Shown here: piece by piece, positions 8,393 to 47,833 of the stretch
Numbering within the stretch: position 1 is the first letter of the stretch
Layout: every line of letters begins with the position of its first letter
Assembly: GCA_020249505.1 (NCBI GenBank)
Contig: JADCFN010000011.1
Coordinates: 1-64,000 of the forward strand
Direction of reading: 5' to 3'
Length of the DNA stretch: 64,000 nt
Source of the DNA: Roseomonas sp.
GTDB lineage: Bacteria > Pseudomonadota > Alphaproteobacteria > Acetobacterales > Acetobacteraceae
Position numbers and translations under genes: made by a program
The notes under the pieces: generated by a model
Told to the model about the DNA's origin: nothing
Databases searched by the model: none
Seen by the model: only the letters and a program-made list of their open reading frames with translations

Positions 8393-8789
8393 GTACCGCG
8401 TTGTTGCGGTGAGCCGATTCGCCTAGGCCAACCCGGTAAGCTTCCTGCCAAAGCGCTGCCTTGCAGGCGGATTTGCCCGGCCTTCCATTCGGTTTCGGGC
8501 ATGATTCCGGGTGCCCCGGGGGGCTTTGAGGAAAAAAAACGGGCGCAAGATGGATTTTGCTTGCATTCCTGGGGCGCAGGGCATAGATGCGCCTCAGACG
8601 CAGTACGCACGTGCCTCTGGCCCCCGGCCCCTCGGCCAAAGGGTTTACGCAACGACGTCAAGCGTTCTGGCAACCCCGTCTGGGTCTTCTCGGGCGGCAA
8701 TTTACTGGTCGCTGGTTCGTTCGACCGTTTCGTTAACCTTGGGCCGTCGCCTTCATGGGCGGCCCGTTTGGAGCCTGGAGGGTGCTGCG
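8393..8789 (+). promoter_or_regulatory. Long leader upstream of ornithine decarboxylase, speF-motif-like
   Basis: About 400 bases without an independent gene lie before the ornithine decarboxylase start. The speF RNA motif is a long cis-regulatory leader described upstream of speF in Alphaproteobacteria, so position, length and downstream gene all match. The segment holds several GC-rich inverted stretches and a highly regular tract around 8640-8760. The decarboxylase frame stays open through it from 8511 and reads '...VYATTSSVLATPSGSSRAA...'. I cannot confirm the conserved secondary structure by eye; the call rests on context and recollection of the motif. Confidence 0.5.
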
Positions 8790-9920
8790 ATGACACCGAA
8801 AATCGCACGCTTTTTGCGCGACAACGCGCTGGCCACGCCATGCCTTGTGCTGGATGTGGATCGTGTCGAAGAAAAGTACCGCGCCATGCACGCGGCGCTG
8901 CCGCTTGCGCGCATCTATTACGCCGTGAAGGCCAATCCCGCCGCGCCGATCCTGGAGCGGTTGGTGAAGCTTGGCTCAAGCTTTGATGCGGCTTCCTTTG
9001 AAGAAGTGGAGGCTTGTCTGGAAGCCGGCGCGCGTCCGGAAGCGATTTCCTATGGCAATACCATCAAGAAGGCGTCGGCGATTGCGGCCGCCCATAAGGC
9101 TGGTGTTTCCATGTTCGCCTTCGACAGCATCGAGGAATTGGAAAAGCTGGCGCGCCATGCGCCCGGCGCGCGGGTTTATTGCCGCATCCTGGTGCAGAAT
9201 GAAGGCGCGGAATGGCCGCTTTCGCGCAAATTCGGCTGCGAATTGGAAATGGCGCGCGACCTGATGCTGAAGGCCGGCGATATGGGGCTAGACCCCTATG
9301 GCATTTCCTTCCATGTCGGCAGCCAGCAGACCAAGACCGCGGCTTATGAAGGTGCGATCGCGCGGGTTGCGATGCTGTTCACCGATTTGAAGGAAGCGGG
9401 CGTGAAGCTCCGCATGGTCAATCTGGGGGGCGGCTATCCGGTGCGTTACCGTGCGGAAGTGCCGGGCATTGATGATTTCGGCATGGCCATCATGGGCGCC
9501 ATGACGAAGCATTTCGGCAATGACCTGCCAGAGATGGTGGTGGAGCCTGGGCGCTTCATTGTGGGCGATGCCGGCCTGATTTCCAGCGAAGTGGTGCTGG
9601 TTTCCCGCAAAGGAACGGCTGATCCGGTGCGCTGGGTCTATCTGGATATCGGGCGCTTTGGTGGCCTGGCGGAAACGGAAGGCGAGGCCATTCGCTACGA
9701 TATCCGCACGCGGCATGACGGGTCTGAGGATGGGCCGGTGACCATCGCGGGCCCGACCTGCGACAGCACGGATACGCTGTATGAAAAATCCAATTACCGC
9801 ATGCCGATGAATCTGGCCTGTGGTGATCGGGTAGAGTTGCTGTCCACCGGGGCGTATGTGACGACCTATGCGTCGCAAGGCTTCAACGGCTATGCGCCGT
9901 TGAAGGAACACTACATTTGA
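8790..9920 (+). CDS. speF: Ornithine/lysine decarboxylase, fold type III
   Basis: A 376-residue PLP enzyme of the alanine-racemase-fold decarboxylases. 'YYAVKANP' places the PLP lysine at K47, 'FHVGSQ' and 'NLGGGYP' bind phosphate, 'EPGRFIVGDAG' is the family Glu-Pro-Gly-Arg, and 'GPTCDSTDTLYE' carries the active-site Cys-Asp. These fit ornithine decarboxylase making putrescine in polyamine synthesis, possibly also using lysine. ATG 8790 is chosen over the ORF-track start at 8511 because it follows a GGAGGG site and matches the family N-terminus. A leader precedes it and a strong hairpin follows, so it is probably monocistronic. Confidence 0.85.
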   Translation: MTPKIARFLRDNALATPCLVLDVDRVEEKYRAMHAALPLARIYYAVKANPAAPILERLVKLGSSFDAASFEEVEACLEAGARPEAISYGNTIKKASAIAAAHKAGVSMFAFDSIEELEKLARHAPGARVYCRILVQNEGAEWPLSRKFGCELEMARDLMLKAGDMGLDPYGISFHVGSQQTKTAAYEGAIARVAMLFTDLKEAGVKLRMVNLGGGYPVRYRAEVPGIDDFGMAIMGAMTKHFGNDLPEMVVEPGRFIVGDAGLISSEVVLVSRKGTADPVRWVYLDIGRFGGLAETEGEAIRYDIRTRHDGSEDGPVTIAGPTCDSTDTLYEKSNYRMPMNLACGDRVELLSTGAYVTTYASQGFNGYAPLKEHYI

Positions 9921-9928
9921 CGTCCTAT

Positions 9929-9968
9929 GGCGTGATCCGCTTGCGCGGGTCACGCCACACCAATTTTA
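9929..9968 (+). terminator. Strong intrinsic terminator after ornithine decarboxylase
   Basis: A 13-base stem, TGGCGTGATCCGC against GCGGGTCACGCCA with one G-U wobble and a TTGC loop, starts 9 bases after the stop. A short T-tract ('AATTTT') follows 8 bases later. Confidence 0.6.
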
Positions 9969-9976
9969 GGCTGGTC

Positions 9977-10020
9977 GCATTTTCCGAGTCACCAAACATT
10001 TCCGTTTGCCTTGAAAATGC
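9977..10020 (+). repeat. 44-nt palindromic intergenic repeat, copy 1
   Basis: Outer arms 'GCATTTTC' and 'GAAAATGC' are perfect inverted repeats 28 bases apart. An inner pair CAAAC/GTTTG closes a second stem. The element matches, at equal length, the reverse complement of 46436-46479: both share 'TTTTCCGAGTC' and 'CTTGAAAATGC' while the centre differs. It sits between the convergent decarboxylase and enolase-superfamily genes. Confidence 0.65.
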
Positions 10021-10043: not shown

Positions 10044-11183
10044 TCAGACGTAACCCGGCCCCTCGATCGCGGGGTGCGCCTTCAAAAACGCCTCATCCAC
10101 CTCAACACCAATGCCCGGCGTTTCCAGCGGACGCACGCAGCCATCCTTGCCGATGCGCCAGGGTTCGCTGCCCAATTCATCGCGGAACTTATTGGCGCGC
10201 GACACATCGGCTTCGAAATAACCACCATTATCAATCGCAGCGAGCAGATGGATGGATGCTGCCTGATTGACGCCTGTCATGGATGAATGTGGGTGGATCG
10301 GGATCTTGAAGCCGGATGCCATGGCGGCGATGCGCATCGTTTCCGTGACGCCACCGCATTTGGACAGATCAGGCTGCCAGATGCGAATCACATCATCTTC
10401 CAGCACGCGGGTGAATTCAAAGCGGGTGAAGTGGTTTTCGCCGGCAGCCAAAGGCGTGCTGCCGAAACCATGTGCCTCGGCATAGGAACGGTGATCATGG
10501 GCGGGGAAGGGTTCTTCCAGCCAGCCGATATTCAGCCGGTCCATCTCGGGCAGCACCTGGCGCACCTGCGCGATATTATAGCCGATATTGGCATCGGTCA
10601 GGATTTCCAGATCATGGCCGAAGGCATCGCGCACCGCTTCCATGCGCGCAATATCATCACGCACCGTATCGCCAACGCGAAGTTTTACCGCCTTGTAGCC
10701 CGCTTCCATATGGGGTGCCGCTTCATCAAGCAGTTGCGCTGGCGGCTGATAGCCAAGTGCGACGCCACCGGCATAGGCCGGCACCGGGCGCGCGGAACCG
10801 CCGAGCAACTTGTAAAGCGGCAGGTTCAGCGCCTTGCCCTTGGCGTCCCATAACGCCATGTCGAGACCCGACATGGCCATGGCGGTGGCCGCGCCCATGC
10901 CATGGCTCGCCAATTGGTATTTGTAGATGCGCGCCCAAATGCCGGTGGTGTCAAAGGCATCCATACCCAACACCAATTGCTTGAGCGTGGTTTCCAGCAA
11001 TTTCGCGATGGCGGTATGCGCCCGGCCGTGATGGCTTTCGCCCCAGCCAACAATGCCATCTTCCGTGATGACCTTCACCATCACCGCATCGCGCTTCACC
11101 GCCTGGCCAATCCCAAGCCGAGGCCCGGAATTGGGCGGCAGCGGGAAGGAGGTTGGGAATGCCTTGATGTCCACGATTTTCAT
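10044..11183 (-). CDS. Mandelate racemase/muconate lactonizing enzyme family protein
   Basis: A 379-residue member of the enolase superfamily. The N-terminal capping domain begins 'MKIVDIKAFPTSFPL'. The barrel carries 'YKAVKLRVGD' (Lys-x-Arg base pair), metal ligands in 'ILTDANIGYN', 'WLEEPFPAHD' and 'LAAGENHFTR', and 'HPHSSMTGVNQ' with the general base His. It would remove the alpha-proton of a carboxylate to catalyse racemisation, cycloisomerisation or sugar-acid dehydration; the substrate cannot be told. The ORF track adds 47 unlikely N-terminal residues; ATG 11183 is the family start. It is divergent from the AtzG-like/amidase pair across about 100 bases and may share regulation with it. 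Confidence 0.85.
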   Translation of the reverse strand: MKIVDIKAFPTSFPLPPNSGPRLGIGQAVKRDAVMVKVITEDGIVGWGESHHGRAHTAIAKLLETTLKQLVLGMDAFDTTGIWARIYKYQLASHGMGAATAMAMSGLDMALWDAKGKALNLPLYKLLGGSARPVPAYAGGVALGYQPPAQLLDEAAPHMEAGYKAVKLRVGDTVRDDIARMEAVRDAFGHDLEILTDANIGYNIAQVRQVLPEMDRLNIGWLEEPFPAHDHRSYAEAHGFGSTPLAAGENHFTRFEFTRVLEDDVIRIWQPDLSKCGGVTETMRIAAMASGFKIPIHPHSSMTGVNQAASIHLLAAIDNGGYFEADVSRANKFRDELGSEPWRIGKDGCVRPLETPGIGVEVDEAFLKAHPAIEGPGYV

Positions 11184-11286
11184 GCGGCGATCCTCATGCT
11201 TGCTGGCGCTCAGCCTGCCACCTTGGTCGGGCATTTGCAAAGCCTGGGCACCCGTCGCAGCATGAGTGACCGCAGGAGAGACTGTC

Positions 11287-11493
11287 ATGAAACCCGACCC
11301 CATCCCCCCCAGCATGGAAGCCATCCGCCTATGGAGTGGCGTTGAATGCCCGAATGAGGCCGCACGGCTTGGCCTGGCTGATCACCTCGGTCTGCTCAAG
11401 GAACTTGAGGCTTTGCGCGGGACGCTGGTGTTTGAAGATGAACCTTCCAGCTTTGAAGCGGCACTCCGCACCGAGCAGGAGAAGGAATCATGA
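11287..11493 (+). CDS. Small AtzG-like (DUF4089-type) amidase partner
   Basis: A 68-residue protein just upstream of, and overlapping by 4 bases (ATGA), an amidase. Its pattern 'W.GVE.PNEAA..GLADHLGLLKELEALRGTLVFEDEPSSFEAAL' resembles the small helical AtzG/DUF4089 proteins. These partner AtzE-type amidases in the way GatC partners GatA. It would wrap and stabilise the amidase rather than catalyse. The start is ATG 11287; the upstream Met in the track lacks a better ribosome site. Similarity is short and judged by eye. Confidence 0.55.
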   Translation: MKPDPIPPSMEAIRLWSGVECPNEAARLGLADHLGLLKELEALRGTLVFEDEPSSFEAALRTEQEKES

Positions 11494-45852: not shown

Positions 45853-46434
45853 ATGCGGGTGCTGCTGATCCATTGCCATCCGCGGGCTGAGAGTTTTTCG
45901 GCAGCACTCCGCGACACAGCGCGACAAGCGCTGGAAGCCGCCGGGCATCACGTGGAATGCCGTGATCTTTACGCGGAGGGCTTCGTGCCCGCGCTGAGTG
46001 ATGCCGAGCATCGCGACTATCTGGACCCTGCAAGCCATCCGCCGGATGTCGCGGATCATGTCGCTTCGCTTCAACAAGCTGAGGCGCTACTGCTGGTCTA
46101 TCCCACCTGGTGGTATGGGCTGCCGGCCATGCTGAAGGGCTGGTTTGATCGAATCTGGGCGCCGGGCGTTGCCTTCAAGCTTGGCGAAGGCGCGATTGAA
46201 CCGCTGCTGACCAATATCAAGCGCATCGGCGTGGTGACGACCTATGGCTCACCCTTGTGGTTGTTATGGGTGATTGGCTGGCCGGACAAGAAACTCATCA
46301 ATCGCGGCCTCAGGCGATTGTGCGCGCGCGGGTGCAGCGTAGAATGGCTGATGCTGACACGGATGGATCAGCGCACCGCACCGCAACGCGCGGCGTTTCT
46401 GGCAAAGGTGAAGGCGCGGCTTGGCCGGTGGTAG
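45853..46434 (+). CDS. NAD(P)H dehydrogenase (quinone), flavodoxin-like fold
   Basis: A 193-residue flavoprotein of the NQO1/MdaB/Kef-type family. 'MRVLLIHCHPRAESFSAALRDTARQALEAAGHHVECRDLY' and 'LLVYPTWWYGLPAMLKGWFDRIWAPGVAF' are the flavin and ring-binding motifs. It reduces quinones or supplies reduced flavin with NAD(P)H. It follows the FAD oxidase pair with a 9-base gap, so it may recycle electrons from them. It is the last gene of the cluster before a palindromic repeat. Confidence 0.85.
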   Translation: MRVLLIHCHPRAESFSAALRDTARQALEAAGHHVECRDLYAEGFVPALSDAEHRDYLDPASHPPDVADHVASLQQAEALLLVYPTWWYGLPAMLKGWFDRIWAPGVAFKLGEGAIEPLLTNIKRIGVVTTYGSPLWLLWVIGWPDKKLINRGLRRLCARGCSVEWLMLTRMDQRTAPQRAAFLAKVKARLGRW

Positions 46435-46435
46435 A

Positions 46436-46479
46436 GCATTTTCAAGCCAAGTGAGCTCACTTGGCGACTCGGAAAATAC
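46436..46479 (-). repeat. 44-nt palindromic intergenic repeat, copy 2
   Basis: On the minus strand this aligns base for base in length with 9977-10020, sharing 'TTTTCCGAGTC' and 'CTTGAAAATGC'. Its centre is a perfect 20-base palindrome, GCCAAGTGAGCTCACTTGGC, whereas copy 1 has a different but still self-complementary centre. It begins 1 base after the quinone reductase stop and lies between convergent genes, so it could serve as a bidirectional transcript end. Confidence 0.65.
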
Positions 46480-46489
46480 GATCAAAAAA

Positions 46490-47833
46490 TTACTCGAATA
46501 GATGATCCAATTCCCGCCAATCCGGCACTTCCGCATCCAGCACTTTGCCATGGCGCAGCACAATCCGATCCGCTTGGGGGCGTGACAGAAATTCAGTCAT
46601 GTGGCGCGCGCGGAAGAGGATAAGATCAGCCGGCGCACCGGGGCGGATCATGCCCGCCCCTTGCAGCCCCATCGCCGCGGCAGGGCGCGCACCGACGGAA
46701 AGCGGCCAGTCACCATAGGGGTGATCCAGATGCAGGATGCGCGTCGCTTCGCGTATCACCTCCACCATATCCAAATCGCCATAGGCATAGAAAGGATCAC
46801 GCGTATTGTCTGACGCAAGCGAAACAGACACGCCACCCGCCTGCATTTCATGCACCAGCGTCACACCGCGCCAGCGTGGCGTGCGCCCCGGCTCCCGGTC
46901 CTGCAGATACATATTGCACATGGGCAGCACCACAATCGAAACGCCCGCTTCGGCGCAAGCCTTGATTGTTTCCAGTGCGAATTCATCTGTCTGGCGCGAA
47001 AGGGAACAGCAATGGCCGCATTGGATGCGCCCCTTGAAGCCGCGGCGCATCGCCGTCAGCGCAATTTCGCGCAAGGCGCGCGCGCCGGTTTCCCCGCTTT
47101 CATCCACATGCAAATCCAGATCAAGCCCGCGCGCTTCGGCAAGCGCGAAGAAATGATCCAGCATGGCGTGGAACTCAGGCGGAATATCATCATGAATGCC
47201 ACCGGAAAGCCGCGTCACCATGCCCAAGACACCGCCCGATTCAGCAACGATATCGGCAAGCTGCGTGCCCTCTTCCCCGGCAAAGCGATCAAGCGGCGCG
47301 ATGGAGGAAGCCTGCAAGGTGATGCGCCCCGCCCAATCATCACGCAGCTGGCGGAACATACGCCAGGCCTTGGGCGCATGGGGCATGTAGCTATCCAGAT
47401 GGGTGCGCACCGCAACCGTGCCATGGGCGTAAGCGGCACGCAGCGCGAATTCAGCGCGTGCACGCATATCGGCTTCAGACCAATTCACATCGCGATCCGC
47501 CATCACGGTAGTAAGCGCACCGAAGAAGCTGCCATCCGGATTGGCGGCGCGTTGCCAGATATGGCCCTTATCCAAATGGGTATGCGCATCCAGCATGCCG
47601 GGCCATACCTGCCCACCATCCAGGGAAACCCCATCCGGCGCAGAGCCAAGCGGCGCGATGGCGGCGATGCGCCCCTGTTCAATGCGCAGATCAAACCGCG
47701 CGATGCCATCACGGTCCAAGGGTAGCGGCCCGGCGCCTTCCAGCACCGCAGCCGGGGCGCGGACATCACGCAGCCAAAAATCGTTGCCCACGCCGGTCAA
47801 GGCCGCGCGGGTTATTGCCATGGCGCTGCTCAT
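46490..47833 (-). CDS. Cytosine deaminase-like amidohydrolase
   Basis: A 447-residue amidohydrolase of the cytosine-deaminase branch. Metal and active-site motifs: 'DAHTHLDKGHIWQR' near residue 80, 'LHVDESGETGARAL', 'IQCGHCCSLS', and 'LASDNTRDPFYAYGDLDMVEV'. E. coli CodA turns cytosine to uracil; relatives deaminate isocytosine, creatinine or other cyclic guanidines. It is the last gene of an ABC importer operon and overlaps the permease by 4 bases, so it probably acts on the imported solute. Confidence 0.8.
   Translation of the reverse strand: MSSAMAITRAALTGVGNDFWLRDVRAPAAVLEGAGPLPLDRDGIARFDLRIEQGRIAAIAPLGSAPDGVSLDGGQVWPGMLDAHTHLDKGHIWQRAANPDGSFFGALTTVMADRDVNWSEADMRARAEFALRAAYAHGTVAVRTHLDSYMPHAPKAWRMFRQLRDDWAGRITLQASSIAPLDRFAGEEGTQLADIVAESGGVLGMVTRLSGGIHDDIPPEFHAMLDHFFALAEARGLDLDLHVDESGETGARALREIALTAMRRGFKGRIQCGHCCSLSRQTDEFALETIKACAEAGVSIVVLPMCNMYLQDREPGRTPRWRGVTLVHEMQAGGVSVSLASDNTRDPFYAYGDLDMVEVIREATRILHLDHPYGDWPLSVGARPAAAMGLQGAGMIRPGAPADLILFRARHMTEFLSRPQADRIVLRHGKVLDAEVPDWRELDHLFE

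Follow-up and report, generated by a model that had tools for sequence, protein, structure and literature searches.

Two hairpin repeats between convergent genes

The window, by which we mean the whole 64,000-nt stretch analysed, contains two copies of a 44-nt hairpin repeat, and both sit in gaps between convergent genes. Copy 1 (9977–10020, plus strand, GCATTTTCCGAGTCACCAAACATTTCCGTTTGCCTTGAAAATGC), which has a degenerate inner stem, was matched by the covariance model described below with an E-value of 3.1e-15. It lies between a PLP-dependent Orn/DAP/Arg decarboxylase family gene (8550–9920, plus strand) and a convergent mandelate racemase/muconate lactonizing enzyme family gene (10044–11324, minus strand). 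Copy 2 (46436–46479, minus strand, GTATTTTCCGAGTCGCCAAGTGAGCTCACTTGGCTTGAAAATGC; E-value of 2.4e-17) is intact and is flanked by a Flavodoxin_2/NAD(P)H oxidoreductase family gene (45853–46434, plus strand) and an amidohydrolase family gene (46490–47833, minus strand). The whole inserted unit of copy 2 (46432–46492, minus strand) includes a linker, read as GATCAAAAAAT on the plus strand, and a TA at each end, and it supplies the stop-codon region to both convergent neighbours. Copy 1 is preceded by a degenerate T-rich linker (9964–9976, plus strand; TTTTAGGCTGGTC against the consensus TTTGTTTGGTC) and, further upstream, by a hairpin (TGGCGTGA..TCACGCCA; 9928–9957, plus strand) that could be either similar to the hairpin A introduced below or the terminator of the 8550–9920 gene. 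Folding of both copies, on each strand, was better than that of dinucleotide shuffles (z −3.1 to −4.3).

An earlier note, made from the letters of the window, had described these two sequences, and we could reproduce its description: the two 44-nt sequences are present at the above coordinates, their outer 11 bases match at 10/11 and 11/11 positions, the central 10 bases match at only 1/10, and both centres are self-complementary, as CAAAC/GTTTG in copy 1 and as a 20-base palindrome in copy 2. The centre of copy 1 retains only 5 paired bp, flanked by A.C, C.C and A.C mismatches that have no counterpart in its orthologues, at which a perfect CCAAAC/GTTTGG stem is found (GCCAAACGATTCCGTTTGGC centre). 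Relative to these orthologues, three pair-breaking substitutions were identified in its inner stem, and copy 1 is best read as a decaying copy that is losing this stem. The perfect palindrome of copy 2 is incidental, since several of its orthologues have the loop AGTT instead of AGCT.

Anatomy of the unit

The unit is about 58 nt long and consists of the T-rich linker followed by the 44-nt hairpin, ending in GCTC(TA). Its plus-strand consensus reads TTTGTTTGGTC-GCATTTTC-CGAGTC-GCCAAGTG-ATTC-CACTTGGC-TT-GAAAATGC-TC(TA or CC), at which GCATTTTC/GAAAATGC form an outer stem of 8 bp, while the inner stem, also of 8 bp, is variable in sequence and self-complementary, and carries a variable tetraloop. 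The asymmetric internal loop CGAGTC/TT between the two stems is nearly invariant, partly because the searches were anchored there.

Copies occur singly, in head-to-tail arrays, or in a composite behind a second hairpin, referred to here as A. Arrays have a period of 54–64 nt, with two units in the window's genome and up to five near-identical units in relatives; all neighbouring copies in the window's genome (contigs C1, C3, C14, C21, C27 and C54) are head-to-tail. Hairpin A has the form TAGAGC..TTCAC..GTTCAC..GCTCTA, runs TAGAGC..GCTCTA outside the genus, and is joined by the T-rich linker to the 44-nt hairpin, B. At L028, L031 and L026, hairpin A was seen upstream of the repeat as TTAGTGCGTGTCC-TTCAC..GTTCAC-GGACACGCACTAA, a second covarying repeat. 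A separate family model would probably be justified for hairpin A. In a weak test, a hairpin was found upstream of the linker in 122 of 141 cases, against 99 for shuffled sequences, and we base no conclusion on it.

Distribution of the repeat

The pattern TTTTCCGAGTC N5-35 TTGAAAA had 16 exact matches in the 4.06 Mb genome, and the reversed control pattern had none. A covariance model was built on these 16 edge-pattern matches and used at a threshold of E<1e-13, which brings the copies in the window's genome to about 40 (37 below the threshold and ~6 decayed), and the palindromic repeat family proposed in the earlier note is thereby borne out genome-wide. Among the matches listed, the repeat-rich congeners, with genomes of 2.6–4.2 Mb, have from 49 to at least 102 copies; other congeners, mostly of 5–6 Mb (4.8–6.4 Mb), have 0–7. 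Copy number splits the genus mostly along genome size, with the exception of one 4.2 Mb genome (G004) that has none.

Other Acetobacteraceae and Sphingomonadaceae carry from 4 to at least 150 copies. Among the named carriers are Roseomonas acroporae (at least 150), a Neomegalonema MAG (132), Falsiroseomonas selenitidurans (87), Sphingomonas UBA1000 (75) and Siccirubricoccus phaeus (74), as well as freshwater MAGs labelled Roseomonas sp. All matches in the samples of the class and of the phylum fall in Alphaproteobacteria. Some of them are cousins that share the TAGAGCATTTTC..GAAAATGCG frame and have a different inner hairpin, and blastn finds cousin repeats on plasmids of Sinorhizobium, Bradyrhizobium and Methylobacterium. 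Along two near-complete genomes, 14/15 cousin matches in G043 were on the minus strand and 13/13 in G162 on the plus strand; these are weak matches to near-palindromes, with uncertain strand calls. Pattern matches in Methanosarcina, Faecalibacterium, Rodentibacter and others had no inner stem, were judged to be chance and were excluded. The repeats are a real dispersed family recurring across Alphaproteobacteria, and not a product of chance.

No Rfam family reached its gathering score over the window, and only chance-level E-values were obtained around one composite and one cousin. Phage records gave no match to the repeat. Within the literature library searched, neither sequence strings nor keywords led to a description of the repeat, and the strings of its rhizobial cousin gave none either; the rhizobial relatives may already have a name in other papers.

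Filled and empty sites

The site of copy 2 is filled in eight genomes, including that of the window, and empty in at least eight relatives, which read ..GGTGG TAG CCGG.. and lack about 57 nt; in this empty form the convergent genes overlap. At the site of copy 1 a different subset of genomes is filled, one of them with two tandem copies. The upstream hairpin at 9928–9957 is absent from the empty sites, accompanies the repeat in three genomes (G015, G027 and G005), and occurs without it in G024, where the orthologous locus (L235, G024:C142) shows the upstream hairpin followed by an insertion of ~1 kb, with the repeat absent. Relatives thus differ in whether they carry the element at either site, and the window copies are accordingly read as separate insertions. 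Further sites differ between relatives by single or A+B elements.

Most junctions show no clean target duplication and often 3–9 nt are replaced; the flanks have diverged by 6–15%, so deletion could explain some of the empty sites. In Sphingomonas sp. UBA1000 (L293), an A+B composite splits a REP-type transposase gene. The N-terminal portion of this gene gave a hit to REP_Tyr_transpos that stays below the family cut-off (E 2.4e-8); past the element, the frame looks, by eye only, like the C-terminal portion of an intact relative, and blastp gave no alignment. The junctions in the split gene read ..CTCCCC-TA-GAGCGG.. and ..GAAAATGCTC-TA-TGCTGCG... At another locus (L100, ~2050–2330), two tandem repeats are bracketed by the last part of the preceding gene (TTTCTCGCGCGATGACA..GGCGCG), which resembles a flank duplication of ~35 nt; this gene end occurs only once at the related locus L061.

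Covariation of the inner stem

Across 42 diverse copies, 95.5% of cells in the inner stem are paired, doubly changed cells number 92 vs 24.6 in shuffles, and sliding the register abolishes the signal. The earlier note had named centres that are not self-complementary as evidence against its reading, and this check speaks for it: poorly paired centres do occur, but as decayed copies. In 109 distinct cores, the inner stem departs from pairing by 12 G.T and 20 A.C. Neither strand therefore stands out as an RNA, and the covariation is no specific pointer to RNA structure. Selection acting on the RNA fold as such was rejected because of this absence of a G.U vs A.C strand bias; from the earlier suggestion of selection on DNA or RNA structure, what stands is that the covariation of the centres is real.

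Among orthologous and some tandem neighbour copies, the inner stem took 8 pair-breaking changes, 2 to wobble pairs and 1 compensated change. A further 23 changes fell on the 4 positions of the loop and 11 on the 8 positions of the internal loop; all these counts are approximate, as the groups mix orthologues with tandem neighbours. As changes among related copies mostly break pairs, the covariation mainly separates subfamilies and genomes. Centres are nearly uniform within a genome (GCCTTGCG.. in Falsiroseomonas, GTCCGGCG.. in Siccirubricoccus phaeus and GGGCAATG.. in the Neomegalonema MAG), and such likeness within and unlikeness between genomes is as expected if copies were recently amplified from a source copy. 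Since the centre is perfect in the orthologues of copy 1, the difference between the two window copies is one between subfamilies. The compensatory change that the earlier note read from this pair is accordingly not supported; the pair represents independent insertions of different subfamilies and not one evolving site.

Template switching in quasi-palindromes (quasi-palindrome correction) is an established mutational process, and it would match the two arms with neither selection nor a recognising enzyme. The absence of strand or RNA bias suits such an origin of the covariation; however, breaking changes stay uncorrected among related copies and the dispersal of the repeat is left unexplained, and we consider this origin highly improbable.

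Location relative to genes

Convergent gaps hold 63 of 120 intergenic loci against 14.9 expected (nominal p 4e-26), with gene orientation taken from a dicodon gene caller, the expectation drawn from those gaps of the named loci that carry no element, and loci of related species being not fully independent; 48 of the remaining loci are in tandem and 9 in divergent gaps. In tandem gaps, neither the upstream stop (26 vs 22) nor one orientation (28 vs 20) was clearly preferred.

The strong enrichment between convergent genes would be expected of a cis-acting 3′-end element, selected there as a bidirectional transcription barrier, a terminator or a stabiliser of mRNA 3′ ends. Many copies carry a T-rich tract behind their upstream hairpin, and among orthologues the tetraloop changes at a higher rate than do the stem and the internal loop, which fits the same explanation and could reflect a function in place, a point against reading the repeat as mobile. 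Yet no U-tract, the mark of an intrinsic terminator, stands directly behind the 44-nt hairpin on either strand (TGCTCC or CTAG follows on the plus strand and GCGACCAAACAAA on the minus strand, and the T-tract lies 5′), and the wobble pairs and tandem gaps, as described above, show neither an RNA-strand bias nor a clear preference. Copies are also missing in many relatives, and copy 1 is losing its inner stem. A cis-acting role as the primary explanation is, in our view, quite improbable.

Search for a mobilising enzyme

The earlier note had pointed to REP-associated tyrosine transposases (RAYTs), a suggestion that the genomes do not support. With the Pfam profile Y1_Tnp (PF01797), no match was found in the window's genome and a match in only 1/35 congeners; 3/20 wider carriers, none of them copy-rich, had a match above the cut-off, and none was seen in the five non-congeneric genomes with the most copies. 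The positive controls in E. coli and Caulobacter were detected. A regular-expression scan, which degenerate copies could escape, found no repeat copy beside seven RAYT-type loci except L293, where the apparent association is the above insertion of the repeat into a RAYT-type gene. RAYT mobilisation was therefore rejected for the window's genome and the richest carriers, as no RAYT was found there; the mobilising enzyme is not a RAYT encoded in the window's genome.

IS630-family DDE_3 matches were detected in 20/34 genomes of the genus. About seven IS630-family loci in the genus end in TAGAGC, one of them in TAGAGCATTTTCCGATC, which equals the first 12 bases of the repeat, and no such end pair occurs in 104 control stretches. 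Perhaps, then, the unit or the A+B composite is similar to a MITE of the IS630/Tc1-mariner type and is moved in trans by an IS630-family DDE transposase, a specific form of the mobile-repeat explanation favoured below, with TA (often CTAG) bounding the unit or composite and TAGAGC..GCTCTA, the ends of hairpin A, acting as terminal repeats. TA at both ends fits site 46436 and the split transposase gene, and the GCTC-TA end is present in 29/42 copies from outside the genus. Against this, the other empty-site comparisons show no TA duplication, the B unit alone has TAGAGC at one end only, and other IS630 elements have different ends, TAGAGC (6 to 12 bases) being common to some only. In addition, at the thresholds used, no DDE_3 match was found in at least six repeat-rich congeners or in the rich outside carriers G236 and G238. 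The IS630 link is therefore presented as an unproven lead and not as a finding, and we hold this explanation to be rather unlikely. In L303 (G000:C14:68117-69563), a decayed repeat copy lies within a broken element of the IS630 family whose TAGAGCATGCTGTGTTTATACGGA ends are perfect.

The explanation that we favour, with a probability of roughly 0.6, is that of a non-autonomous, REP-like mobile hairpin repeat, mobilised at the DNA level by a putative trans-acting enzyme. The observations behind it are the dispersal, the orthologous presence and absence, the insertion inside a gene of another genus, the covariation, the genome-specific centres and the location. New copies of the unit would arise mainly in intergenic DNA, and there chiefly in convergent gaps, through an enzyme that may act in trans and read the hairpin in a folded form, either single-stranded or cruciform. 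The outer stem and bulge would be the sequence-specific part, and the inner stem would be required only as a stem. The unit may lie behind genes because insertions survive where they do no harm or because such targets are chosen, and any influence on mRNA 3′ ends would be secondary. The missing transposase and the mostly unclean junctions count against this mobile-repeat explanation.

Relation to known palindromic repeats

The earlier note had likened the elements to REPs, which holds for their distribution and not for the definitions of GTAG and CGTC REPs. Like GTAG REPs and BIMEs (PMC2817692, PMC3733652), the repeat is a short imperfect hairpin with a mismatched middle, present in tens to hundreds of dispersed intergenic copies, mostly behind genes or in convergent gaps, and has genome-specific variants with complementary changes. 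Unlike them, it has no GTAG/GTGG 5′ of the hairpin, where the consensus reads TTTGTTTGGTC-GCATTTTC.., no RAYT in the window's genome or the richest carriers, and, at the seven RAYT-type loci, no transposase flanked by two inverted copies; instead of inverted pairs it forms head-to-tail arrays of units with two stems and a conserved asymmetric internal loop. CGTC REPs (Di Nocera 2013, PMC3733652) are likewise mostly alphaproteobacterial, patchy by species and have no dedicated transposase known, but they have a CGTC head, a single 8–9 bp stem starting with AT pairs and a CCA tail, none of which is present here, and form mainly head-to-head dimers with negligible head-to-tail ones, whereas the repeat here has 44 nt in two stems and is arranged head-to-tail. 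Acetobacteraceae are listed as having no CGTC repeats (PMC3733652), and the present repeat is abundant in them. As the defining features of both groups were tested and found lacking, we file the repeat under neither; it works like a REP, in being a short hairpin spread behind genes, with no RAYT.

To IS630/Tc1-mariner MITEs it is similar in its TAGAGC..GCTCTA ends, in the TA at some junctions and in the end motif common to some local IS630 elements, and dissimilar in that TA duplication is not general and a transposase is inconsistently found in repeat-rich genomes. Sinorhizobium RIMEs and A/B/C palindromes, as described where they are cited in PMC2573895 and PMC2873474, are also intergenic palindromic mosaic elements of an alphaproteobacterium, and rhizobia contain a cousin that shares the TAGAGCATTTTC..GAAAATGCGAC frame of the present repeat. 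Hairpins A and B and the rhizobial cousins might even belong to one class-wide alphaproteobacterial superfamily, bounded by TA/CTAG and moved in trans by IS630/Tc1-mariner-type DDE transposases with ends starting in TAGAGC, a proposal that we regard as unlikely. If it were true, the REP/BIME-like arrays of this class would have arisen via an enzyme class other than RAYTs, and the CTAG end of each element would be the next insertion site, giving head-to-tail arrays.

Palindromic repeats of Alphaproteobacteria have been noted as having no known mobilising enzyme (PMC3733652). The abundance of the present repeat in Acetobacteraceae, its many filled and empty sites and the end motif shared with some local IS630 elements would therefore make it a concrete system for studying the RAYT-free spread of REP-like repeats.
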